Positions 11,551 to 55,007 of a stretch of DNA of 64,000 nt are shown here, in pieces. How positions within the stretch are numbered: the first letter of the stretch is position 1; every line of letters starts with the position of its first letter. The stretch covers positions 62,001 to 126,000 of the forward strand of contig JABAKE010000010.1 of the NCBI GenBank assembly GCA_019779905.1. The letters are read 5' to 3'. The translations under genes and the position numbers were made by a program. The notes beneath the pieces are model-generated. The model was not told the DNA's origin. It did not search any database and was given only the letters and a program-made list of their open reading frames with translations. This DNA is from Modestobacter lapidis (GTDB lineage: Bacteria; Actinomycetota; Actinomycetes; Mycobacteriales; Geodermatophilaceae).

Positions 11551-12332
11551 AACTCCAGGTCGACCAGCAGCGGGTTGTGGTCGGAGCAGTCGGCGCCGTC
11601 GAGCACCTGCGCGCCGGCGACCGCCACACCGGGTGACACCCACACCTGGTCGATCCGCACGCGCGGGTGGCCGGCCGGGTGGGTGAGCCCCTGCTGTGCG
11701 CGCAGCGACCAGCGCCCCGCCTGGTCGCTGCGTGCCCGGGCCAGGTGCCAGGCGTCGGTGAACCGCTCGCGCAGCACATCCAGCTCGGAGGCGCCGGTGT
11801 CGGCATTGAGATCACCGGCGAGAACGCCGGTCTCCGTGGGATCGTGCAGCCCGGCGAGGACGGCGGCCTGGGCGGCCCGGGTGGCCGCGGACCGGGCGTT
11901 CAGGTGCGTGGCGGTGACCCACAGCGCACCGCCGTCGAGCCCGACCTGGGTGCGCAGGGCGCAGCGCGGCTCGCCGTCCCCCGGCAGCGGGTGCACGGCA
12001 CTGGCCAGGATCGGCAGCCGGGACAGCAGGGCGTTGCCGTACTGCCGGCGCTCCCCGGCACCGTCGCCCGGCCGGTCGATGGCCGGCCCCCAGGCCAGCT
12101 GCATGCCCAGCGCGCGGGCCAGCAGCACCGCCTGGTCGACGTGCTCGCTGCGCTTCCCGAAGTGCCGGTCGACCTCCTGCAGGCAGATCACGTCGGCCTC
12201 GCCGGCAGCCAGCAGGCGGGCCAGCCGCGGCAGGTCGTGCCGGCCGTCGGGACCCACGCCGTGGTGGATGTTGAACGTGAGCAGCCGCACCGGGATCGAC
12301 GGCCGGCCGGGACCGGGCACGGGCTCGTCCAC
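11502..12332 (-). CDS. Endonuclease/exonuclease/phosphatase (EEP) family protein
   Basis: The 276-aa product has all the metal-dependent EEP motifs: LTFNIHHG, CLQEVD, the GNALLSRLPI segment, THLN, AGDLNAD, and the C-terminal SDHNPLLVDLEL. Family members hydrolyse phosphodiester bonds in nucleic acids, inositol phosphates or sphingomyelin, so the substrate is open. No signal peptide is seen, so it should be cytoplasmic. The GTG start at 12332 is 11 bp after the stop of the PhoD-like gene, suggesting a two-gene operon of phosphoesterases. Confidence 0.85.
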   Translation of the reverse strand: MDEPVPGPGRPSIPVRLLTFNIHHGVGPDGRHDLPRLARLLAAGEADVICLQEVDRHFGKRSEHVDQAVLLARALGMQLAWGPAIDRPGDGAGERRQYGNALLSRLPILASAVHPLPGDGEPRCALRTQVGLDGGALWVTATHLNARSAATRAAQAAVLAGLHDPTETGVLAGDLNADTGASELDVLRERFTDAWHLARARSDQAGRWSLRAQQGLTHPAGHPRVRIDQVWVSPGVAVAGAQVLDGADCSDHNPLLVDLELEDPLSPTPRELGAVP

Positions 12333-30712: not shown

Positions 30713-30749
30713 CGACCGGACCGGCTGCGCACCGCAGCCGGTCCGGTCG
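30713..30749 (+). terminator. Hairpin terminator after rplS
   Basis: A perfect 16-bp stem (CGACCGGACCGGCTGC / GCAGCCGGTCCGGTCG) with the 5-nt loop GCACC lies 18 bp after the rplS stop. Only a short T-containing run (CGTTTGTGG) follows, as is usual in GC-rich actinobacteria. Confidence 0.75.
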
Positions 30750-30814
30750 CGTTTGTGGCCGGCTGCACGCCGCGTCCGGGGCTGGTGCCGGACGCGGACC
30801 GTACGCTGGTCGTG

Positions 30815-42275: not shown

Positions 42276-43064
42276 GTGACCGACACCCGTACCGCCATCA
42301 ACCCGGAGGGGCTGACGTCCGCACCCACCGCCTTCGCGCCCCCGGACGGCCAGGGCTACTCCCGGGTGCTGCTCAAGCTCTCCGGTGAGGCCTTCGGCGG
42401 CGGCAAGGTCGGGCTGGACTCGGACATCGTCCGCAACATCGCCGAGCAGCTGGCCGCCGTCGTCCACGCCGGCACGCAGGTCGCCGTCGTCGTCGGTGGC
42501 GGCAACTTCTTCCGCGGCGCCGAGCTGTCGCAGGCAGGCATGGACCGCCGGCACGCCGACTACATGGGCATGCTCGGCACGGTCATGAACTGTGTGGCGC
42601 TGCAGGATTTCTGCGAGCAGGTGGGCCTGGAGACCCGGGTGCAGACGGCGATCACCATGGGGCAGGTCGCCGAGCCCTACATCCCCCGCAAGGCCGTCCG
42701 GCACCTGGAGAAGGGGCGCCTGGTCATCTTCGGCGCCGGTGCCGGCATGCCGTACTTCTCCACCGACACCGTCGCCGCCCAGCGCGCCCTGGAGATCGGC
42801 TGCCAGGTGCTGCTCATGGCCAAGAATGGGGTGGACGGCGTCTACGACGACGACCCGCGGACCAACTCCGCGGCCACCATGTACCACGACCTCGACTACG
42901 GCACCGTGCTCGCCAAGCAGCTCAAGGTGGCCGACGCCACGGCCATCAGCCTCTGCATGGACAACCAGATGCCGATCGTCGTGTTCAACCTGTTGCGCGA
43001 CGGCAACATCGCCCGGGCGGTCGCGGGTGAGAAGATCGGCACGCTGATCAGCCAGCCGGTCTGA
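42276..43064 (+). CDS. pyrH: Uridylate kinase
   Basis: PyrH phosphorylates UMP to UDP. The 262-aa hexameric-type kinase has [12 protein letters not shown] near residue 31, [26 protein letters not shown] and [14 protein letters not shown]. The first 27 residues are a variable extension before the core. The GTG start at 42276 overlies the end of a short upstream leader; PyrH levels may be affected by the two hairpins in front. Confidence 0.95.
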
Positions 43065-43083
43065 CGACCGGCTCCGCTCGCAC

Positions 43084-43118
43084 GGTGCGGGCGACGCTCG
43101 CCGGACGTCGCCCGCACC
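43084..43118 (+). terminator. Hairpin between pyrH and frr
   Basis: A perfect 13-bp stem (GGTGCGGGCGACG / CGTCGCCCGCACC) with the 9-nt loop CTCGCCGGA lies 19 bp after the pyrH stop. No T-run follows. Confidence 0.6.
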
Positions 43119-43181
43119 GCCCCGCACCGTCACCACCCGCCGGCCAGCGCGGCAGCACCTGCCGCAGGAAGTGAGAGCCCC

Positions 43182-45685: not shown

Positions 45686-45834
45686 CGACGCGCCCGGCGC
45701 GGGTTGGCCATTCTCCCCGGCGTCGCCTGCCCGGCGGACCCGCCGGCGAGGGGCAGCATGGCCCGTTGGTTCCGGCTTCCTGAGTACCGGCCACGGACGT
45801 GGCCGGCCGGACGACCGCCGGGGGAGGAGCGCTC

Positions 45835-47259
45835 GTGGACACCGGTCGACCGCGGGACGTCGTTCCTCCGCCTGCCGCGCCCGGCGCTCCGGGCGCGGAT
45901 GCCGCCGACCCCAGCTGGGACGCCGCCTGGCTGCCCGAGTGGCTGGCGTCGGAGGATGACGAGCTCCAGCCCGACGAGGCTGGGCCCGAGGAAGCCGGGC
46001 CCGACGAGGCTGAGCCCGAGGAGCCTGGGGACGACGGATCTCCGGAACCGACCGGCGGCGCCGCGGACGGCGACGCGGTCGAGCCGCTGGACGTCGACGC
46101 GGCCGCGGCCGAGGGCGCGGAGGACGGAGAGCTCCGGGATGCCGAGGGCGACGACGGTGCTGACGACGGGCCCGCGGACACCGGCGTCGTCGCCGCGGCA
46201 GCCGCCGGACCTGCCCAGACGGCGGTCCCGGCCCTGGAGCCCGCGGTCACCGATGCGGCTGCGGTCGTCGACGACGAGCAGGCGGAGGACGACGTCGACG
46301 AGGGCGCGGGACCCGACGCCCGGGATCCCGTCGGGTCCGTCGACCAGGAACCCGTCCTGAGCCCTGCCGGCGTGCGTCCCCGGTGGCGGGCCCGGATGCT
46401 CGTGCCGCTGGTCCTGGTCGTCGTCGGCGCGGGAGTCGCGGTGTTCACGTCGTCCGGTGTCGCCGACCGCGAGGCCCCGGCCGTCGCAGCAGCCGAGCGG
46501 GAGACCCCTGCCGCGACGACCCCCTCGGCGCGCGCCGGTGGAGCGGGCCGGGGCGCCGACGGTGCCGCCGTCCCGAGCCCCCCTGCCGTGCCGACCGCGG
46601 TTCCGGCCGCCGAGCCGTCGGTCGCGCGGGTGACCGGGCCGCTGGCCGCGCCCGCCGCCAGCGGCACGACCCTTGGCGACGCGGCCGGGCGGCCGGTGGT
46701 GGCACGACCGGTGACCGCCGTGCGGGCGCCCGTGCCCCCCGTCGCCCCGGTGAAGACCGCCGCTCCGGTCGGCGCGCCCTCGACCGGAGCGACGCCGGGC
46801 GCCCCGGTCATGATGGCCCCGCCCGCGGGAACGCCGACGCCCGGTGCCCCGCCGATCGGGACGCCGATCCCCACGACGCCGATGCCCACGACGCCGCCCA
46901 CCGCGACGCCGCCGCCCACCGCGACGCAGCCGCCCACGGCGACGACGACGCCCGACACCAACGATCCGGCGGAGCCGACGCCGACGACGCCCGACCCCAA
47001 CGATCCGGCCGAGCCGACGCCGACGGCACCGCCCGACCCGAGCGATCCGGTGGAGCCGAGTGATCCGGCGAAGCCGACGCCGACGACGCCGCCCGACCCG
47101 AGCGATCCGGCGGAGCCGAGCGATCCGGCAGAGCCGAGTGATCCGGCGGAGCCGACGCCGACCGCCCCGCCGACCGGCACGGCGCCGCCCACCGCGACGT
47201 CGGCACCGACCCCTCCGGTCGAGCTGCCGCCGCTTGCGAGCGCCGCCCGGCCCTACTGA
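45835..47259 (+). CDS. Single-pass membrane protein with acidic cytoplasmic and Pro/Thr-rich outer regions
   Basis: The 474-aa product is unrecognised. Residues ~1-180 are very rich in Asp, Glu, Pro and Ala. One membrane segment ([17 protein letters not shown], about residues 187-203) follows. The outer part is Ala/Pro/Thr-rich and ends in repeated SDPAEP/NDPAEP units. GTG 45835 is chosen for the strong GGAGGAG 5 nt upstream; GTG 45799 is in frame. A type II orientation with a wall-spanning C-terminus is inferred. A long antisense frame exists, but its product has no recognisable features. Low complexity keeps confidence moderate. Confidence 0.65.
46960..47154 (+). repeat. 18-bp coding repeats (xDPAEP units)
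   Basis: Seven related 18-bp units of the form A-R-Y-GATCCGG-N8 occur at 46960, 46999, 47041, 47059, 47101, 47119 and 47137; the last three are directly tandem. They encode (S/N)DPxxP hexapeptides in the outer region of the membrane protein and are likely to vary in number between strains. Confidence 0.75.
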
Positions 47260-47335: not shown

Positions 47336-48529
47336 ATGACTGCCCTGCCTCTCGTCTTCGACGCCCCGCGGCGTACCAAGCCGCCCCGCCACCTCGCCGA
47401 TCTGACCCGCGAGGAGGCCCGCGCCGCCGCGGTCGACCTGGGGCAGCCGGCTTTCCGCGCCGACCAGCTGGTGCGGCACTACTACGCCGGGGTCACCGAC
47501 CCGGCGCAGATGACCGACCTCCCGGCCGCGGTCCGCGAGGACCTCACCGCGGCGCTGCTGCCCGGCCTGCTGACCCCGGTCCGGCACCAGTCCGCCGACG
47601 GTGGACGCACCCGCAAGACCCTGTGGCGGCTGCACGATGGCGCGCTGGTCGAGAGCGTGCTCATGCGCTACCCCGAGCGGGCCACGGTCTGCATCTCGAG
47701 CCAGGCCGGCTGCGGGATGGCGTGCCCGTTCTGTGCGACCGGGCAGAGCGGGCTCACCCGCAACCTCTCCGCGGCCGAGATCATCGGTCAGGCCGTGGCC
47801 GCCGCGGCCGCCATGGCGAACGGGGAGATCCATGGGGGGCCGGGGCGGCTGTCCAACGTCGTCTTCATGGGCATGGGCGAGCCGCTGGCGAACTACCCCC
47901 GCGTCCGCAAGACCCTCGATGCGCTGCTCACGCCGGCCCCGCACGGGCTCGGGCTGTCCCAGCGCGCGGTGACCGTCTCCACGGTCGGCCTGGTGCCCTC
48001 GATCCGCCGGCTCACCGAGGAGGGGCTCAACGTGACCCTCGCGGTGAGCCTGCACGCCCCCGACGACGAGCTGCGCGACACCCTGGTGCCGATCAACACT
48101 CGCTGGAAGGTCGCCGAGGTGCTCGGCGCCGCCGACGACTACGCGCGGCGCACCGGTCGCCGGTACTCGGTCGAGTACGCGCTGATCCGCGACGTCAACG
48201 ACCAGCCGTTCCGCGCCGACCTGCTCGGGAAGCTGCTGTCCTCGCGGCTGGCGCACGTCAACCTCATCCCGCTGAACCCGACCCCGGGCAGCCCCTGGGA
48301 CGCCAGCCCGCTGCCCGCGCAGCGCGAGTTCGTCGCCCGGCTCCGGGCGGCCGGCGTGCCGACGACGGTCCGCGACACCCGCGGATCGGACATCGACGGC
48401 GCCTGCGGGCAGCTCGCCGCCGCCGACCAGGTGGACGGCGTCCCCAGCGTCGCCCTCGCGACCCCCTCGATCCCGCAGCCACCCGTCGAGGAGTCCGTGG
48501 CCCTGGGCGCCGACCCCGACGAGGCATGA
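47336..48529 (+). CDS. rlmN: Dual-specificity 23S rRNA/tRNA adenine-C2 methyltransferase RlmN
   Basis: RlmN is a radical-SAM enzyme that makes m2A2503 in 23S rRNA and m2A37 in some tRNAs. The 397-aa protein has the CxxxCxxC cluster in [24 protein letters not shown], and a second catalytic cysteine in [14 protein letters not shown] 47336 gives the usual [13 protein letters not shown]-terminus; an in-frame ATG at 47324 is also possible. The stop overlaps the next start by ATGA. Confidence 0.94.
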
Positions 48530-49260
48530 CCGCACCGGGCACCGCGGGTGGGCATCCGGGACAGGCCGAGGCGCACACCCACACCCACTCCGACGTCGCC
48601 GGGGGATGGCTGCGCGCCGCCGTCTTCGGGGCGATGGACGGCCTGGTGACCAACACCGCGCTGGTGGCCGGGGTGGCCGGGGGCGGGGTCAGCGCGCACG
48701 CCGTCGTCCTGTCCGGGGTTGCCGGTCTCGCCGCCGGGGCGATCTCCATGGCGCTGGGTGAGTACACGTCGGTCACCACGCAGAACGAGCAGCTGGACCT
48801 CGAGGTCGCGAAGGAGCGCCACGAGCTGACGACCAACCCCGTCGGTGAACAGCGGGAGCTGGCCGAGCTGTGGGAGGCCCGGGGGCTCGAGGCCCCGCTG
48901 GCCGCGGCGGTCGCCGAGCAGCTGTCCCGCGACCCGGAGCAGGCGCTGCGGGTGCACGCGGTGAACGAGCTGGGCCTCGACCCCGAGGAGAAGCCGTCGC
49001 CGATGACGGCGGCGGTCTCCTCGTTCCTGTGCTTCGCCGTCGGCGCGGTGATCCCGCTGCTGCCGTTCCTGCTCGGGGCGCCGGTGCTGTGGCTCGCACT
49101 GCTGTGCGGCGGGATCGGTCTGGTCGCGGCCGGCGCGATCTCCGCGCGCTTCACCGCGCGGCCCTGGTGGCAGGCCGGCCTGCGCCAGCTGCTGTTCGGC
49201 GCCGTGGCGGCCGCGGTGACCTACCTGATCGGTCTGGCGATCGGATCCGGCATCGGCTGA
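48526..49260 (+). CDS. VIT1/CCC1-family transporter
   Basis: The 244-aa protein belongs to the vacuolar iron transporter family, which exports Fe(II) or Mn(II). It has a His-rich N-terminus (HTHTHSD), [19 protein letters not shown] in the first helix, [14 protein letters not shown] in the second, a cytoplasmic helical domain ([16 protein letters not shown] to NELGLDPEE) typical of metal-binding VIT1 loops, and three further membrane segments. It overlaps rlmN by ATGA. Confidence 0.88.
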
Positions 49261-49262
49261 GC

Positions 49263-49322
49263 CGGCGGACGCCGGCCGGGGGGTTCCTGGCCGGCGTCCG
49301 CGGGTGTGGTCGGTGTGGTCAT
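49263..49322 (-). pseudogene. 5' scar of the LCP gene (first ~20 codons) beside surface-protein copy 1
   Basis: Just after the stop of surface-protein copy 1, an ATG (49322 downward) opens MTTPTTPADAGQEPPGRRPP, the same as the true N-terminus of the LCP protein at 51405. DNA identity to the LCP gene ends at 49263. Beyond that the frame runs into unrelated sequence and stops at 49221. It is a truncated duplicate, not a gene. Confidence 0.85.
49265..49301. terminator. Perfect 13-bp inverted repeat between convergent VIT1 gene and surface-protein copy 1
   Basis: GCGGACGCCGGCC and GGCCGGCGTCCGC flank an 11-nt loop. At this locus it is placed to terminate transcription from both sides. The identical inverted repeat at 51348-51384 lies inside the LCP coding sequence. 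The duplicated segment ends two bases outside this structure. Confidence 0.7.
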
Positions 49323-49324
49323 GC

Positions 49325-50269
49325 TCAGGCCTGGGTGGCTCCGGTGCGTCGGCGGGAGACGAGGAGGGCGCCGCTGCCGGCGATGACGAGGGCGCCGCCG
49401 AGGGCGAGTGGGACGGCGACGCTGGCGCCGGTGTAGGCCAGGTTGCTGGAGCTGGCGGTGGTGGTGCCGGTGCCGACGTGGACGGTTTCCTGGAAGTAGG
49501 AGCCCTTGTTGCCGTCGTAGACGAAGGTGTGGTCGGCCTCGGTGGTGCCGGCCGGGATGGTGTAGGTCGCGGTGACGACGCCGTTGGCGTCGGCGGTGAA
49601 GGTGCCCAGGACGGTCGGGGTGGAGTGCATGACCAGGGTGACGACCTCGAAGGGCTGGAAGCCCTTGAGGATCTTGGTGATCTCCTTGCCCGGGACGACG
49701 GCCGAGGCCGGCACCGAGGTGGAGGTGGGGGCGATGCCCGCGGTGTTGGCCGAGGCGCCCTTGATGGCGCCCTTGGCCGGGGTGGCCGGGGTGGCCGTGT
49801 CGGTGCCGGTGTCGGTGCCGGTGTCGTTGGTGTCGGTGCTGGGGGCGGGGGTCGGCGTCGTGGCCGGCGCGGTCACCGTCGTGGTGATGAACGGGTATTC
49901 GGTGCCCTCGGTGCCGTAGACCTGGCTGCAGACCGCACCGATCTGGTGGGCGCCGGCCGGGGTGCCGGTCGGGAAGGACAGGGTCACCGACCATGCGCCG
50001 TTCGCGTCGGACTCCCCGATGACCAGGTCGTCGGTCTCCAGCGCCTCGTCGGTCAGGACGACCGCGAATGCCGGGTATGCCTCGTCGAGGGTCGGGCATG
50101 CGGTGCCGTTGACGGTGAACGACGCACCGGCGACGACGGAGGCAGGAGCCACCGGGGCGGGCAGCGGGTCGGCGGCGAGGGCGGCGGGCGCCAGCGCCAG
50201 ACCGGCGGTGGTGGCGACGAGCGACAGGCCGGCGGCAGCGGTCACGCGGCGCAGGGGAAGGAGGGACAT
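49325..50269 (-). CDS. LAYTG-anchored surface protein, copy 1
   Basis: The 314-aa product has a signal peptide (MSLLPLRRVTAAAGLSLVAT, cleavage near ALAAD), a beta-rich domain with two cysteines (GTACPTLDE and GAVCSQV), a Thr/Pro linker, a second beta-rich domain (KILKGFQPFEVVTLVMHSTP), and a C-terminal sorting signal: LAYTG, a hydrophobic segment, then SRRRTG. LAxTG is the recognition motif of class E sortases, so wall anchoring is likely. No sortase gene is in the window. From residue ~23 on it is identical to copy 2 (51408-52352). Only the signal peptide and upstream DNA differ. Confidence 0.85.
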   Translation of the reverse strand: MSLLPLRRVTAAAGLSLVATTAGLALAPAALAADPLPAPVAPASVVAGASFTVNGTACPTLDEAYPAFAVVLTDEALETDDLVIGESDANGAWSVTLSFPTGTPAGAHQIGAVCSQVYGTEGTEYPFITTTVTAPATTPTPAPSTDTNDTGTDTGTDTATPATPAKGAIKGASANTAGIAPTSTSVPASAVVPGKEITKILKGFQPFEVVTLVMHSTPTVLGTFTADANGVVTATYTIPAGTTEADHTFVYDGNKGSYFQETVHVGTGTTTASSSNLAYTGASVAVPLALGGALVIAGSGALLVSRRRTGATQA

Positions 50270-50406
50270 CGGGACTCCGGTCTCAGGTTGGCGGCCCGCA
50301 CGTCCGGACCGGCTTGCCCTGGACATCGGCGTGGAACCGGGCCAACTGAAACGGGATCACCCGACGGGGCGGCGATGTCCGGATCTGCCCGGAGCGGACC
50401 CGATGC

Positions 50407-51405
50407 TCATCGCTCGCAGGCCAGGCCTGCCGCCGCCACCGCGGCGGTCGTCTCATCGGTCGCGACCCGGGCGATGGTGCTACCCACGGGAGCGCTGACC
50501 GGCAGTACCGCGACCTCCCCGACGTCCGCCCGGGCCAGCGAGATCAGATCGGCCACGGAGGTGCCCGGGTCGACGGTCACCGCACCCGAGGCGGCCCAGG
50601 CGATCCGCTGGAGACGCCACGGGCGGACGACGGATCCGTGGACGGCGTCGGTGAGGGCCGAGAGAACCGTGCCGGCGGCCGACGCGCGGCCGTCCGGGTC
50701 GACCGGGACCGGCACCCAGTCGTCGCCGACCCGGCGCTCCGGATGCCGGGAGCGCACCAGAGCCAGGGCGGTCGCGCCGTCCACGTGCTGCGGCCCGGCC
50801 GAGGGCAGCAACAGCCCGGCGGCGGGATCGCGGACCGCGGCGGCCACGTCGAGGTCCAGACCGCCGACCGCGTCCACCACCGAGGCGAAGCCGGCCAGGT
50901 CGACCGCCACCAGGTGGTCGACCGGGATGCCCAGGGTGCAGAGCGCGTCGGCCGTGGCCCCCGGGCCGTCCAGCCAGGTCAGAGCCAGGCGGCCGGCCGT
51001 GATACCCCCGGATCGCACGACGAGGTCCCGGGGGATCGACAGCGCACCGGCGACGCCGTCGGCCGTCCGGTGCACGACGACGATGACGTCGGCACGGCTC
51101 CCCGGCACGTCCTGCGGACTGCCGAAGTCCTCGACGGCCGCCCCGGCCGGCAGGCGCTCGCGGGAGTCCAAGCCGACGAGCACCCAGGTGGTCCCGTCGC
51201 CGTCCGGACGCAGATCGACATCCAGCTCACCCACCCGGGCGCTGACCAGCGTCGCATCGACGCAGAGGAGCGCCACCAGCGCCGCCAGGACGGCGAGGAC
51301 CGTCCGGAGCCGGCGCCGCCGGGACGAGACCCCGGGGGCAGCGGACGGCGGACGCCGGCCGGGGGGTTCCTGGCCGGCGTCCGCGGGTGTGGTCGGTGTG
51401 GTCAT
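50407..51405 (-). CDS. LytR-CpsA-Psr (LCP) family protein
   Basis: LCP enzymes attach glycopolymers such as teichoic acids or arabinogalactan to peptidoglycan. The 332-aa protein has a cytoplasmic N-terminus, one membrane segment (LRTVLAVLAALVALLCVDAT) and an LCP domain with VLVGLDSRER, ADVIVVVHRT, LSIPRDLVV, VDHLVAVDLAGFASVVDAVG and HVDGATALALVRSRHP. It lacks the C-terminal LytR_C domain. The ATG is two bases after the stop of surface-protein copy 2, so they form an operon. Its first 20 codons lie within the duplicated segment and contain a perfect inverted repeat. Confidence 0.87.
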   Translation of the reverse strand: MTTPTTPADAGQEPPGRRPPSAAPGVSSRRRRLRTVLAVLAALVALLCVDATLVSARVGELDVDLRPDGDGTTWVLVGLDSRERLPAGAAVEDFGSPQDVPGSRADVIVVVHRTADGVAGALSIPRDLVVRSGGITAGRLALTWLDGPGATADALCTLGIPVDHLVAVDLAGFASVVDAVGGLDLDVAAAVRDPAAGLLLPSAGPQHVDGATALALVRSRHPERRVGDDWVPVPVDPDGRASAAGTVLSALTDAVHGSVVRPWRLQRIAWAASGAVTVDPGTSVADLISLARADVGEVAVLPVSAPVGSTIARVATDETTAAVAAAGLACER

Positions 51406-52287
51406 GCTCAGGCCTGGGTGGCTCCGGTGCGTCGGCGGGAGACGAGGAGGGCGCCGCTGCCGGCGATGACGAGGGCGCCGCCGAGGGCGAGTGGGACGGC
51501 GACGCTGGCGCCGGTGTAGGCCAGGTTGCTGGAGCTGGCGGTGGTGGTGCCGGTGCCGACGTGGACGGTTTCCTGGAAGTAGGAGCCCTTGTTGCCGTCG
51601 TAGACGAAGGTGTGGTCGGCCTCGGTGGTGCCGGCCGGGATGGTGTAGGTCGCGGTGACGACGCCGTTGGCGTCGGCGGTGAAGGTGCCCAGGACGGTCG
51701 GGGTGGAGTGCATGACCAGGGTGACGACCTCGAAGGGCTGGAAGCCCTTGAGGATCTTGGTGATCTCCTTGCCCGGGACGACGGCCGAGGCCGGCACCGA
51801 GGTGGAGGTGGGGGCGATGCCCGCGGTGTTGGCCGAGGCGCCCTTGATGGCGCCCTTGGCCGGGGTGGCCGGGGTGGCCGTGTCGGTGCCGGTGTCGGTG
51901 CCGGTGTCGTTGGTGTCGGTGCTGGGGGCGGGGGTCGGCGTCGTGGCCGGCGCGGTCACCGTCGTGGTGATGAACGGGTATTCGGTGCCCTCGGTGCCGT
52001 AGACCTGGCTGCAGACCGCACCGATCTGGTGGGCGCCGGCCGGGGTGCCGGTCGGGAAGGACAGGGTCACCGACCATGCGCCGTTCGCGTCGGACTCCCC
52101 GATGACCAGGTCGTCGGTCTCCAGCGCCTCGTCGGTCAGGACGACCGCGAATGCCGGGTATGCCTCGTCGAGGGTCGGGCATGCGGTGCCGTTGACGGTG
52201 AACGACGCACCGGCGACGACGGAGGCAGGAGCCACCGGGGCGGGCAGCGGGTCGGCGGCGAGGGCGGCAGGCGCCAGCGCCAGACCG
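51346..52287 (-). repeat. Long direct duplication, unit 2 (partner 49263-50204)
   Basis: Nearly identical to unit 1. It includes the start of the LCP gene (51346-51405) and surface-protein copy 2 as far as its signal peptide. Because the LCP gene is intact here, this is more likely the donor locus. Confidence 0.9.
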
Positions 52288-52352
52288 AGGGTAGCGGTGC
52301 CGAGAGTGAGGCCCGTCGTCACGGCGACGCGGGAGCGGGACAGGCGGCTCAT
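51408..52352 (-). CDS. LAYTG-anchored surface protein, copy 2
   Basis: The product has the same length (314 aa) and the same mature sequence as copy 1, with LAYTG, membrane segment and basic tail. Its signal peptide differs: MSRLSRSRVAVTTGLTLGTA, which resembles that of the third paralogue ([20 protein letters not shown]). ATG 52352 is chosen because it begins the signal peptide; the open frame extends upstream without one. It is immediately followed by the LCP gene. A CTAGACAGA element lies 49-57 nt upstream of the start, as in the third paralogue. Confidence 0.87.
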   Translation of the reverse strand: MSRLSRSRVAVTTGLTLGTATLGLALAPAALAADPLPAPVAPASVVAGASFTVNGTACPTLDEAYPAFAVVLTDEALETDDLVIGESDANGAWSVTLSFPTGTPAGAHQIGAVCSQVYGTEGTEYPFITTTVTAPATTPTPAPSTDTNDTGTDTGTDTATPATPAKGAIKGASANTAGIAPTSTSVPASAVVPGKEITKILKGFQPFEVVTLVMHSTPTVLGTFTADANGVVTATYTIPAGTTEADHTFVYDGNKGSYFQETVHVGTGTTTASSSNLAYTGASVAVPLALGGALVIAGSGALLVSRRRTGATQA

Positions 52353-52400
52353 CGGAGTCTCCGGTTCGTGGCGGCGGCCCGACGTCCGGGCCTGTTGGTG

Positions 52401-52409
52401 TCTGTCTAG
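52401..52409 (-). promoter_or_regulatory. Shared upstream element CTAGACAGA (copy 2)
   Basis: CTAGACAGA on the minus strand lies 49-57 nt before the copy 2 start. The same nine bases are at the same distance before the third paralogue (53135-53143), and are absent before copy 1. It may be a -10 region (TAGACA) or regulator site. The remaining ~215 bp upstream, to 52624, are less GC-rich and hold no gene. Confidence 0.4.
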
Positions 52410-52624
52410 TGGTCGGTCTCGTCCCGGAATGGCAGTCGTTGCTCCGACACGCCACGCTATCGACCAAGTCATGACAGTTGACCCGCGGATCGTCCAGACG
52501 CGAGGCCTTCGACGCTGTGTGCACCTGCCGACAGCTGGACGGATCGCTACCCACATGTGCTGGTATCTGCGTCACGGCGCGAGGGCGGGTGACCGGAACG
52601 ATCCTGCGGTCGATCGTCCAGCGA

Positions 52625-53086
52625 TCAGGGGCGGTCGGCGTCGTCCGTGCCGGAGGCCGGCGGTCCTGCCGCGGTCACGGTCACGGCGACGATCGGGTAG
52701 TCGAACTCCGCGCTGTCCGCGGAGCCGCCGCCCCGGCACACGGCGCCCACCTCGTGCGTCCCGGCCGACGTGCCGGCCGGGAACGACAGGGTCACCGACC
52801 ATTCGCCGTCGGCGTCGGCCACGCCGACGGCCAGGTCGTCGGTCGACTCCGCCTCGTCGGTCAGGACGGCCACCCTGGCCGGATCGCCGGCGTCGAGGGC
52901 GTGGCACCCGCTTCCGCTGACCGTGAACGGGGTCCCCGCGACCACGGTCAGCGGCAGCGCGGGTGCACTGGCCGGCGCACCCTGCGGCGCGGCGGCCGCG
53001 GTGGTCCCGAAGGTGAGGACCGCAACGGCGGTGCCGGCGGCGAGACCGGCCGCCACGGCGACCCGGGAACGGGGCAGGCGGGCCAT
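52625..53086 (-). CDS. Secreted paralogue of the surface proteins, lacking the anchor
   Basis: The 153-aa product has a signal peptide ([20 protein letters not shown], cleavage near TAAAAP) and one domain homologous to the N-terminal domain of the two anchored proteins. Shared features are [52 protein letters not shown] and two cysteines at matching positions. It stops after [10 protein letters not shown] with no linker, second domain or LAYTG signal. It is therefore probably released. It leads the surface-protein cluster on the minus strand. Confidence 0.8.
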
Positions 53087-53134
53087 CGGGACCTCCGGGG
53101 TGGGGCGGTGGTCCGGCGGCCGGACCTGTCCGTC

Positions 53135-53143
53135 TCTGTCTAG
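53135..53143 (-). promoter_or_regulatory. Shared upstream element CTAGACAGA (third paralogue)
   Basis: Identical in sequence and distance (49-57 nt before the ATG) to the element at 52401-52409, suggesting common promoter control of the anchored copy 2 and the unanchored paralogue. Confidence 0.4.
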
Positions 53144-53267
53144 CTGCCCGGCAGGGCCCGCTTGGCACTGGTTGCCAGGACACGCTGGCCGGCCGGCCAT
53201 CCCGTCACAGCCGCACCACCCGTTGCTGCGGACGGAGTCGGGAATCGGGCAGGACATGCCAATGGCA

Positions 53268-53298
53268 GAGGCCGCCTCCCCGTGGGGGAGGCGGCCTC
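53268..53298. terminator. Strong hairpin terminator after the DUF2631 gene
   Basis: GAGGCCGCCTCCCC and GGGGAGGCGGCCTC form a perfect 14-bp stem with the loop GTG, 36 bp after the minus-strand DUF2631 stop. It separates this gene from the surface island. Confidence 0.75.
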
Positions 53299-53333
53299 CG
53301 TGGTCGTGCGGCGCCGCAGTCGGCGGCGTGAGC

Positions 53334-53654
53334 TCAGTTCTTGCGCCAGGCGTTCTTCCGGCGGCGGGAGTCCCAGATCAGGAGCACCACCATGACGGCC
53401 GCCAGGCTGATCAACCAGAGGTCCTCCACCTGGCCCTCGTGGTTGCCGAAGACCATCGCGGCGAGGAAGGCGATCGGCACGAGCGCTGCGATCCGGCCGT
53501 ACTTGCCCATCTCGTGGTGCCAGCCCCAGTCCTCGGGGCGCTCGTGCTGGATCGGGGCCTCGCCGGCCCGCACGATGCCCTCCACCCGGGCGGGCTGCTC
53601 GATCACCCGGGCGCTGGTCTGGTGGCCCTGTCCACGGCCGCTGTGCTCACTCAC
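53334..53654 (-). CDS. DUF2631 family membrane protein
   Basis: The 106-aa protein has a polar N-terminal half ([20 protein letters not shown], then [20 protein letters not shown], the DUF2631 signature), two hydrophobic segments ([15 protein letters not shown] and [16 protein letters not shown]) and a basic end. The family lies next to dxr/rip in mycobacteria too. Function unknown. The GTG start at 53654 has GAGGAAG 5 nt upstream, provided by a family B repeat. Confidence 0.88.
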
Positions 53655-53731
53655 GTGGCTTCCTCGCTGGGGCTCGTCGGCCGCGTTCGCGGCGCTGCTG
53701 TGCTGGTCGGTGAGCTCGCACGCTCGCTCAC
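53655..53731 (-). repeat. Dispersed 5'-leader repeat, family B, copy 2 (upstream of the DUF2631 gene)
   Basis: Read on the minus strand: CGTGAGCGAGCGTGCGAGC, then CAGCACAGCA, then GGCCGACGAGCCCCAGCGAGG and CCACGTG, whose GTG is the start codon. The same blocks lie before recG and ispG. Confidence 0.75.
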
Positions 53732-53807
53732 GACGCATGATGCCAGGCCCGGCGAACGGCCACCCGGCGACCGGCGGGCGGGGGGCGGGTGTTGCGAGGA
53801 TGCACCC

Positions 53808-55007
53808 GTGAACGCGCCGCGGAAGGTCACCGTGCTGGGGTCCACCGGGTCGATCGGCCGGCAGGCGATCGCCGTGGCCCGGCAGAACCCCGACCACCTC
53901 CGGGTGACCGCGCTGGCCGCCGGTGGCGGCGACGTGGCCCTGCTCGCCGAGCAGGCCCTGTCGCTGGGCGTGCGCACCGTGGCGGTCGCCCGCGCCACGG
54001 CCGCCCAGGATCTGCAGCTCGCCTTCTACGCCGCTGCCTCCAAGCGCGGCTGGGCGCAGGGGCAGTACGCGCTCCCCGAGATCCTTGCCGGACCCCGCGC
54101 CGCCGAGGAGCTGGCCGCCCGCCCCGCCGACGTCGTCCTGAACGGGATCACCGGGTCCATCGGACTCGGGCCCACCCTCGCCGCGCTCCGGGCCGGGCGC
54201 ACCGTGGCGCTGGCCAACAAGGAGTCCCTGGTCGCCGGGGGGTCGCTGGTCACCGCCGCGGCCGCACCGGGTCAGCTGGTGCCGGTCGACTCCGAGCACT
54301 CGGCCCTGGCGCAGTGCCTGCGGGGCGGTGCCCGCGGCGAGGTCGCGCGGCTGGTGCTCACCGCCAGCGGCGGCCCCTTCCGCGGCCGCACCGCGGCCGA
54401 GCTGGCCGACGTCACCCCCGAGCAGGCCCTGGCCCACCCGACCTGGGACATGGGCCCGGTCGTGACGATCAACTCGGCCACGCTGGTCAACAAGGGGCTG
54501 GAGCTGATCGAGGCCCACCTGCTCTTCGGCGTCCCCTACGCCGACATCGACGTCGTGGTGCACCCGCAGTCGATCGTGCACTCGATGGTCACCTTCACCG
54601 ACGGCGCGACGATCGCCCAGGCCAGCCCACCGGACATGCGGCTGCCGATCGCCCTGGCGCTGGCCTGGCCCGACCGGCTGCCCGACGTCCAGCCTGCCCT
54701 CGACTGGTCGGCCGCCACCCGTTGGGAGTTCGCACCGCTGGACGAGGTGGCCTTCCCGGCGGTGCGCCTCGCCCGGCAGGCGGGGGAGGCCGGCGGCGTC
54801 GTCCCGGCGCTGTACAACGCGGCCAACGAGGAGGCGGTGGCGGCGTTCGCGGCCGGACACCTGTCGTTCCCAGCCATCGTCCAGGTCGTCGCGGGTACGC
54901 TCGACCAGGCGCCGGACCTCGGCGTCCCCACCTGCGTCGAGGACGTGCTGGCCGCGGAGAAGTGGGCCCGGGAGCACGCCCGCGCCGCGATCGGCCAGCG
55001 GATGTGA
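53808..55007 (+). CDS. dxr: 1-deoxy-D-xylulose 5-phosphate reductoisomerase
   Basis: Dxr makes MEP, the committed step of the non-mevalonate isoprenoid pathway. The 399-aa protein has the NADPH-binding [11 protein letters not shown] near the start, [11 protein letters not shown], the metal and substrate motif [13 protein letters not shown], and the flexible-loop region [12 protein letters not shown] 53808 has GAGGA 8 nt upstream. It is followed by rip and ispG in the conserved actinobacterial order. Confidence 0.95.

Follow-up and report, generated by a model that had tools for sequence, protein, structure and literature searches.

In Actinomyces oris (A. oris), lcpA, which encodes a LytR-CpsA-Psr (LCP) protein, lies immediately downstream of gspA, and LcpA is needed for full, high-mass glycosylation of GspA; R149 and R266 of LcpA are essential, and C179 and C365 form a disulfide (PMC6381275). 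LcpA was described in a 2021 review as the so far unique example of LCP-driven glycosylation of a sortase substrate (PMC7831098). In a review of mycobacterial transcription, the I-shaped terminators of M. tuberculosis were contrasted with the L-shaped terminators of E. coli and placed no more than 50 bp from the stop codon (PMC12288462). The locus described here lies in a 64,000-nt stretch of Modestobacter lapidis (family Geodermatophilaceae; GenBank assembly GCA_019779905.1, contig JABAKE010000010.1, positions 62,001 to 126,000, forward strand), hereafter the window, and contains, in the order of transcription, a truncated surface protein gene (S3), a complete surface protein gene (S2), an LCP gene and a second complete surface protein gene (S1), with the same hairpin behind S2 and S1 (Table 1). 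With moderate confidence, the locus is read as the product of a recent event in which S2 was copied onto S1, an older paralogue, with S2 and the LCP gene forming a GspA/LcpA-like pair and the hairpin serving as the 3′ element of the surface gene.

The LCP domain scored 67.4 bits with PF03816 (cut-off 24.6) and 73 bits with TIGR00350 (cut-off 62.3). The best of eight matches to solved structures was 5V8C (5v8c_A, E = 4.9e-47), which is A. oris LcpA, followed by a match with E = 9e-9. The catalytic arginines R128, R149 and R266 of LcpA correspond, by hand count on the alignment, to R104, R126 and R240 of the window protein and are invariant in 15 LCPs. C156 aligns by hand with LcpA C179, while C330, the C-terminal cysteine, was matched to C365 by position only, as it lies beyond the alignment; both cysteine columns are conserved in 15/15 LCPs. 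A search for this LCP (E ≤ 1e-40) in 112 genomes of the family, which scored a limited number of candidates per genome and may have missed weak relatives, returned 39 places in 38 genomes, and an open reading frame (ORF) with an LAxTG motif stands directly upstream of the LCP gene at 39/39. The likeness to A. oris gspA-lcpA lies in a gene for a surface protein with a sorting signal followed immediately by an LCP gene (PMC6381275), and in an LCP whose nearest PDB match is LcpA, with R128, R149, R266 and C179 aligned and a C-terminal cysteine kept. The locus differs in its LAxTG signal, in an LCP start codon 2 nt after the surface gene stop and in a hairpin within the LCP coding sequence; the words hairpin and terminator have no occurrence in the main text of the gspA-lcpA paper (PMC6381275).

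S1 and S2 carry the marks of exported, anchored proteins, namely a signal peptide, the LAxTG motif, a hydrophobic stretch and a basic tail. Their description as sortase-anchored in a first, sequence-only reading of this DNA fits these features, but the NCBIfam anchor models stayed just under their cut-offs (NF058582, 26 bits against 27; TIGR01167, 15.1 against 15.9). Neither protein had a Pfam match, and S2 had no sequence match in the PDB. The genome contains five sortase matches (PF04203, over cut-off) and five LCP matches. S2, as an exported LAYTG protein with the LCP start 2 nt behind its gene, would form a GspA/LcpA-like pair with the LCP, which we infer glycosylates the surface protein and which would attach the glycopolymer before sortase anchoring. 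Thr or Ser account for 13 of the 31 residues of a linker in S, which might, as a guess, be the glycan acceptor. The locus is probably the counterpart of the A. oris pair in a different family of actinobacteria, where it recurs as a cassette of two genes.

The hairpin is situated ~20-23 nt after the surface gene stop codon and within the LCP reading frame. When 90 nt behind 20 S genes from 14 genomes were folded (excluding a fragment in genome G022, see below), a long stem was found behind 19, the exception being S3. A pattern derived from the hairpin and searched with up to one mismatch in the 112 family genomes gave 36 places in 32 genomes, compared with 0 for the reversed pattern, and all 36 stand behind a surface gene: 19 outside the genus, at junctions of an LAxTG ORF and an LCP gene (locus L116 among them being G026), and 17 within the genus, which are the S hairpins already folded. 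In six LCP-bearing genomes without the pattern, a hairpin with altered but compensated arms is found at the same spot. The hairpin is thereby present behind the surface gene and inside the LCP frame at 39/39 of the LcpA-like loci found, in 4 of the 12 genera searched in the family; ATG or GTG follows the surface gene stop by 2 nt at 37/39 (exceptions, G014 and G081). A dispersed repeat or an element of the repetitive extragenic palindromic type was rejected on account of the 36/36 places behind surface genes in the family-wide pattern search. A looser pattern gave 12 places in 23 genomes of the genus, of which nine are surface-gene hairpins and three lie elsewhere (G008:C1:1463228, G004:C17:208842 and G014:C1:3007120), and its reversed control matched once each in G000 and G008. 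Membership of a known RNA family was rejected, as Rfam returned two microRNA matches only, far below their gathering scores.

Covariation was analyzed at 15 pairs in 41 junctions, comprising the 39 loci and two junctions without an intact LCP, G004_A and G021_A; the hairpin behind S1 (WIN_S1), which is that of S2, and the one behind a surface gene of G009 (G009_u), whose arms have other letters and inner mismatches, were omitted. Of 615 cells, 99.7% were paired, with two-sided changes at 8/15 pairs and no variation at five. The two-sided changes, 8 pairs and 31 cells, compare with 2.7 pairs and 6.2 cells after shuffling, and 0/500 shuffles reached either value, a count that is not a probability because the rows are related. 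Slid controls were 24-47% paired. In a first test with 17 rows and 17 pairs, 94.5% were paired and four pairs changed on both sides, a pair count reached by 15/500 shuffles.

Further evidence comes from complete surface genes that have no intact LCP behind them, as the hairpin is kept at 4/4 (WIN_S1, G004_A, G021_A and G009_u). Retention of the hairpin by surface genes that lose the LCP would be explained if it serves the surface gene. We favor a role as a partial terminator or 3′-end stabilizer of the surface mRNA: as the 3′ element of the surface gene, the hairpin would most likely be a partial terminator without a U-tract, or a stabilizer, and would yield much surface protein and little LCP. 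Transcription must read through it, since it lies in the LCP coding sequence. It resembles the I-shaped mycobacterial terminators without U-tracts in being a GC-rich hairpin with no T-run at most 50 bp from the stop codon (PMC12288462), and differs in being embedded in the following gene's coding sequence. As in a canonical intrinsic terminator, the stable hairpin is close to the stop codon. A scan for consensus promoters found none. We propose tentatively, as having close to but less than an even chance, that a coding-embedded RNA attenuator couples the dose of the surface protein and its modifying LCP, that the N-terminal peptide of the LCP is largely a by-product of the stem, and that the hairpin marks the unit which rearrangements of the cassette copy, lose or retain.

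Several points weigh against this account of the hairpin. No T-run follows it, and 0 terminator-like sites were found in 48500-53800 (mean of shuffles, 0.7). According to the mycobacterial review, Rho-dependent termination is dominant and intrinsic terminators are scarce, and the titles in its reference list are split between a dispensable and a required U-tract (PMC12288462). In the covariation test, the control slid by -3 also showed two-sided change at four pairs (6 cells). Among the four retained hairpins, WIN_S1 arrived with the recent copy and is weaker evidence for retention than the other three, the losses in G004 and G021 of a second LCP (LCP′) may be one event, and the stem of G009_u differs in its letters and contains inner mismatches. 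Conservation of a palindrome could also reflect a role at the DNA level.

Such a DNA element, either a site for a dimeric regulator or a hotspot for breaks and deletions that determined the boundaries of the repeat and of the LCP′ losses, is considered unlikely. It would account for the palindromic form, for the end of the repeat 2 nt past the hairpin and for the start of the LCP′ losses in G004 and G021 ~15-30 nt past it; the compensated changes at 8/15 pairs, the long stem and the unpaired loop suit RNA pairing better than a fixed site, and, like the hairpin with its spacing of 20-23 nt, a 14-bp stem at 43083-43119 closely follows a stop codon, 18 nt after the ORF ending at 43064. Conservation at the protein level, with a cytosolic LCP tail whose DAGQ..PGRR motif is palindromic by chance, agrees with the invariance of Arg17 and Arg18 in 15 aligned LCPs and is very improbable, because the motif varies while pairing holds (EAGRSSSGRL in G069, DAAPGSPGRR in G082), because the hairpin is also present behind G009_u, where no ATG or GTG stands at the usual place after the stop, and because CCT and CGT are near-fixed in the arms (16/17 and 17/17 arm positions) and rare after codon 25 in 15 LCPs (5/299 Pro and 28/349 Arg codons), a codon choice that supports an RNA stem.

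The conserved hairpin inside the LCP frame is of more interest than the duplication and looks like a new feature added to a pair of genes already known. In a search of open-licence papers, no title or opening of an abstract pointed to a hairpin at the surface-gene/LCP junction, and novelty in print is established to the extent of that search. As one surface gene was probably overwritten together with its hairpin, the locus is a natural experiment that offers a clean RNA element for testing; how the ratio of a surface protein to its modifying enzyme is maintained, and how RNA structure and coding sequence use the same bases, become testable.

The sequence-only reading had reported two near-identical 0.94-kb segments with one difference, and base-by-base alignment (offset 2083) bore this out, with 941/942 positions identical. 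The sole mismatch, at 50186 (G against A, + strand), is silent (codon 28, CCC against CCT) and lies 18 bases inward from the signal-peptide end of the repeat, leaving 923 bp (49263-50185) with 0 differences; because it sits at the edge of the tract, the stretch actually copied may contain no difference at all. The signal-peptide starts and upstream regions differ, as had also been noted: the first 84 nt of S1 and S2 have 57 matching and 27 differing positions, and the 13 amino-acid differences all fall within residues 3-22, so that the mature proteins should be identical, provided that cleavage is at the usual ALA site. Outside the repeat, identity is at background level, with 0 extra matching bases at either end. 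A repeat finder reported the S1/S2 repeat as a perfect 300-bp pair and two other families in the window, with copies of 60-61 bp that are 61-85% like their own reference. In the genome, matches of ~100% were found at these two places only; the runner-up is S3 (72% over 278 bp), and all remaining matches are <100 bp.

The repeat comprises more than the surface protein sequence noted earlier. Read on the minus strand, it starts with the last part of the signal peptide and continues through the mature protein, the stop codon, GC and LCP codons 1-20, extending 62 bp beyond the surface gene stop and including the conserved hairpin. It ends 2 nt past the perfect 13-bp stem and 2 bp from the stop codon of a convergent gene that we take to be VIT1-like. 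An intact LCP stands only behind S2; behind S1 there is a stub.

Gene conversion had been thought likelier than fresh duplication. It better explains the contrast between identity and leaders, as identity in the tract is far above the divergence of the surrounding paralogue sequence (0/923 against 27/84 differences), but a two-ended conversion calls for homology on both flanks, and flank comparison showed it at the signal-peptide end and not on the 49263 side. The likeness to gene conversion between paralogous bacterial surface genes is a near-identical tract inside otherwise diverged paralogues; here, one end of the tract is beyond the gene, at the hairpin, without flanking homology. The signal peptide of S2 is of the type usual in the genus (27/32 residues matching the best relatives) and that of S1 is off-type (20/32), which argues that two distinct leaders predate the copying; since, in addition, only S2 has an LCP behind it, we infer copying from S2 to S1. 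S1 would then be an older paralogue whose own leader and signal peptide survived and whose mature coding part and 3′ hairpin, with the first 20 LCP codons, were recently overwritten from S2 by RecA-type copying begun in the conserved signal-peptide end. At the far end, just past the hairpin, either an LCP′ deleted earlier, as in G004 and G021, would have left only its start, or copying would have stopped without homology. By itself, the duplication is ordinary recombination between paralogues. Two points tell against the copying as set out: copying from S1 to S2 would leave the same identity, so the direction is unproven, and the non-homologous flanks beyond 49263 leave classical two-ended conversion unsupported.

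The S1 leader (50270-50406) lacks, by eye, a GTGTCG stretch present ~100 nt upstream in 14/20 S leaders and a TAGACA/TAGGAA/CCGATA-like stretch present 53-62 nt before ATG in 17/20. Expression of S1 may be poor or rely on read-through.

The locus was placed in 23 genomes of the genus through flanking genes that we take to be RlmN, VIT1, dxr, RseP and a DUF2631-like gene. The cassette, scored by its LCP, is present in 13/23; in 8/23 (G003, G005, G006, G012, G013, G016, G018 and G019) the flanks are present with no S or LCP query match between them at E ≤ 1e-3, and G015 was not placed for want of a dxr match. G022, the sister of the window genome in a FastTree tree of three core proteins (support 1.0), has only a shortened S3-like gene beside VIT1, and S2-LCP-S1 is absent; this gene (L068) has 71% DNA identity over 306 bp, leader included, and is 18 nt from the VIT1 stop. 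Eight of the 13 genomes have one S and one LCP (split over two contigs in G002), and the others are S-S-LCP (G009), S-LCP-S (G004, G021), S-LCP-S-LCP (G001) and S3-S2-LCP-S1 (the window). The locus is variable between species of the genus; no genome of the same species turned up, the best S orthologue being ~55% identical. At the four other two-S loci (G001, G004, G021 and G009), identity between the copies is 44-52%, with no exact repeat >28 bp in common, and homogenization of S genes is particular to the window among the two-S genomes of the genus.

These layouts bear on a recent tandem duplication, in which a doubling of the S-LCP unit was followed by loss of all but a stub of the second LCP, and the S1 leader later came from, or diverged from, another S leader. 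The layouts of G001, G004 and G021 are similar, and the stub agrees with the loss of a second LCP. This sequence of events has a low probability: point mutation alone is insufficient for 27/84 differences followed by 0 in 923 bp, the best match of the S1 leader in the genome is still the S2 leader (74% over ~123 nt), and in G001, G004 and G021 the S genes flank the DUF2631-like gene on either side, unlike in the window, for which reason a common origin with their two-S layout is not favored. A plain recent duplication as the sole event was rejected because divergence changes abruptly at the signal peptide. An assembly artefact, with one real unit or with the S1 body wrongly filled with S2 sequence by gap filling or polishing, would be understandable in a draft genome of 383 contigs, as a perfect 0.9-kb repeat is difficult for short reads. 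It is quite improbable, as each unit has different, gene-like flanks on both sides, S1 has a start of its own with which the copied part is in frame, on the S1 side the sequence runs into a VIT1 3′ end resembling that of G022 (38 bp, 89%), and no near-identical third piece is found on another contig.

Other observations concern the related loci. Behind the second S gene of G004 (L048), a remnant of LCP′ retains the start with the hairpin and the C-terminal end, the middle being deleted, and its reading frame is open by eye. Horizontal transfer of the cassette is hinted at by the VIT1-side S genes of G001, G004, G008 and G021 (L045, L047, L048 and L049), which nest with those of G014/G002 in the S tree, where inner supports are low; the three that were compared are 74-77% identical to that of G014 (L044), against 71% for VIT1 of G001 and G014 (RlmN, 92%).

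Table 1. Features of the surface protein/LCP locus (window positions)
Feature	Position	Strand	Basis
Repeat copy 1 (in S1): signal-peptide end, mature surface protein, stop, LCP codons 1-20 with hairpin	49263..50204	-	alignment
Repeat copy 2 (in S2): same content as copy 1, contiguous with intact LCP	51346..52287	-	alignment
S1: LAYTG surface protein of 314 aa with a leader and signal peptide of its own; mature part identical to S2	49325..50269	-	
S2: 314-aa LAYTG surface protein; genus-typical type of signal peptide	51408..52352	-	
LCP: LcpA-like LytR-CpsA-Psr phosphotransferase, 332 aa; start 2 nt after S2 stop (TGA-GC-ATG)	50407..51405	-	
Hairpin behind S2, within LCP codons 8-20; perfect 13-bp outer stem; 23 nt after S2 stop	51348..51384	-	
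Hairpin behind S1, copied as part of the repeat; repeat ends 2 nt further	49265..49301	-	
LCP stub (33 codons): 20 LCP codons, then 13 codons antisense into VIT1, stop	49221..49322	-	
S3: truncated paralogue of 153 aa, lacking the second half, the sorting signal and the hairpin; similar gene in sister genome G022	52625..53086	-	
Presumed VIT1-like gene, convergent; stop codon 2 bp from repeat end	48526..49260	+	
Small conserved gene, presumably DUF2631-like; dxr-side flank of cassette	53334..53654	-	
Presumed dxr-like gene, conserved flank used for placing the locus in relatives	53802..55007	+	

Outside the family, an even draw of 298 genomes of the order gave eight LCPs at E ≤ 1e-35. Three of the eight (L150, L151 and L156) have an L[AP]xTG ORF shortly upstream and a strong hairpin behind each stop; in L152 and L154 the end of an upstream ORF is anchor-like but misses the motif (by eye), L153 and L157 have neither by the test applied, and L155 starts too close to the sequence end to judge. 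In L150 and L156, the strong hairpin lies in the spacer between the L[AP]xTG gene and the LCP gene, which is possibly the ancestral position of the element.

Perfect stems of ≥12 bp number six in the window, two of them being the S hairpins, compared with 0-1 in each of five dinucleotide shuffles. The others, of 12-17 bp, are the stem at 43083-43119 mentioned above and those at 30713-30749, just before an ORF at 30755, at 53268-53298, behind the DUF2631-like gene, and at 11701-11732. Imperfect tandem repeats at 46912-47190 encode a Pro/Asp/Ser/Thr-rich stretch in the ORF at 45799-47259.

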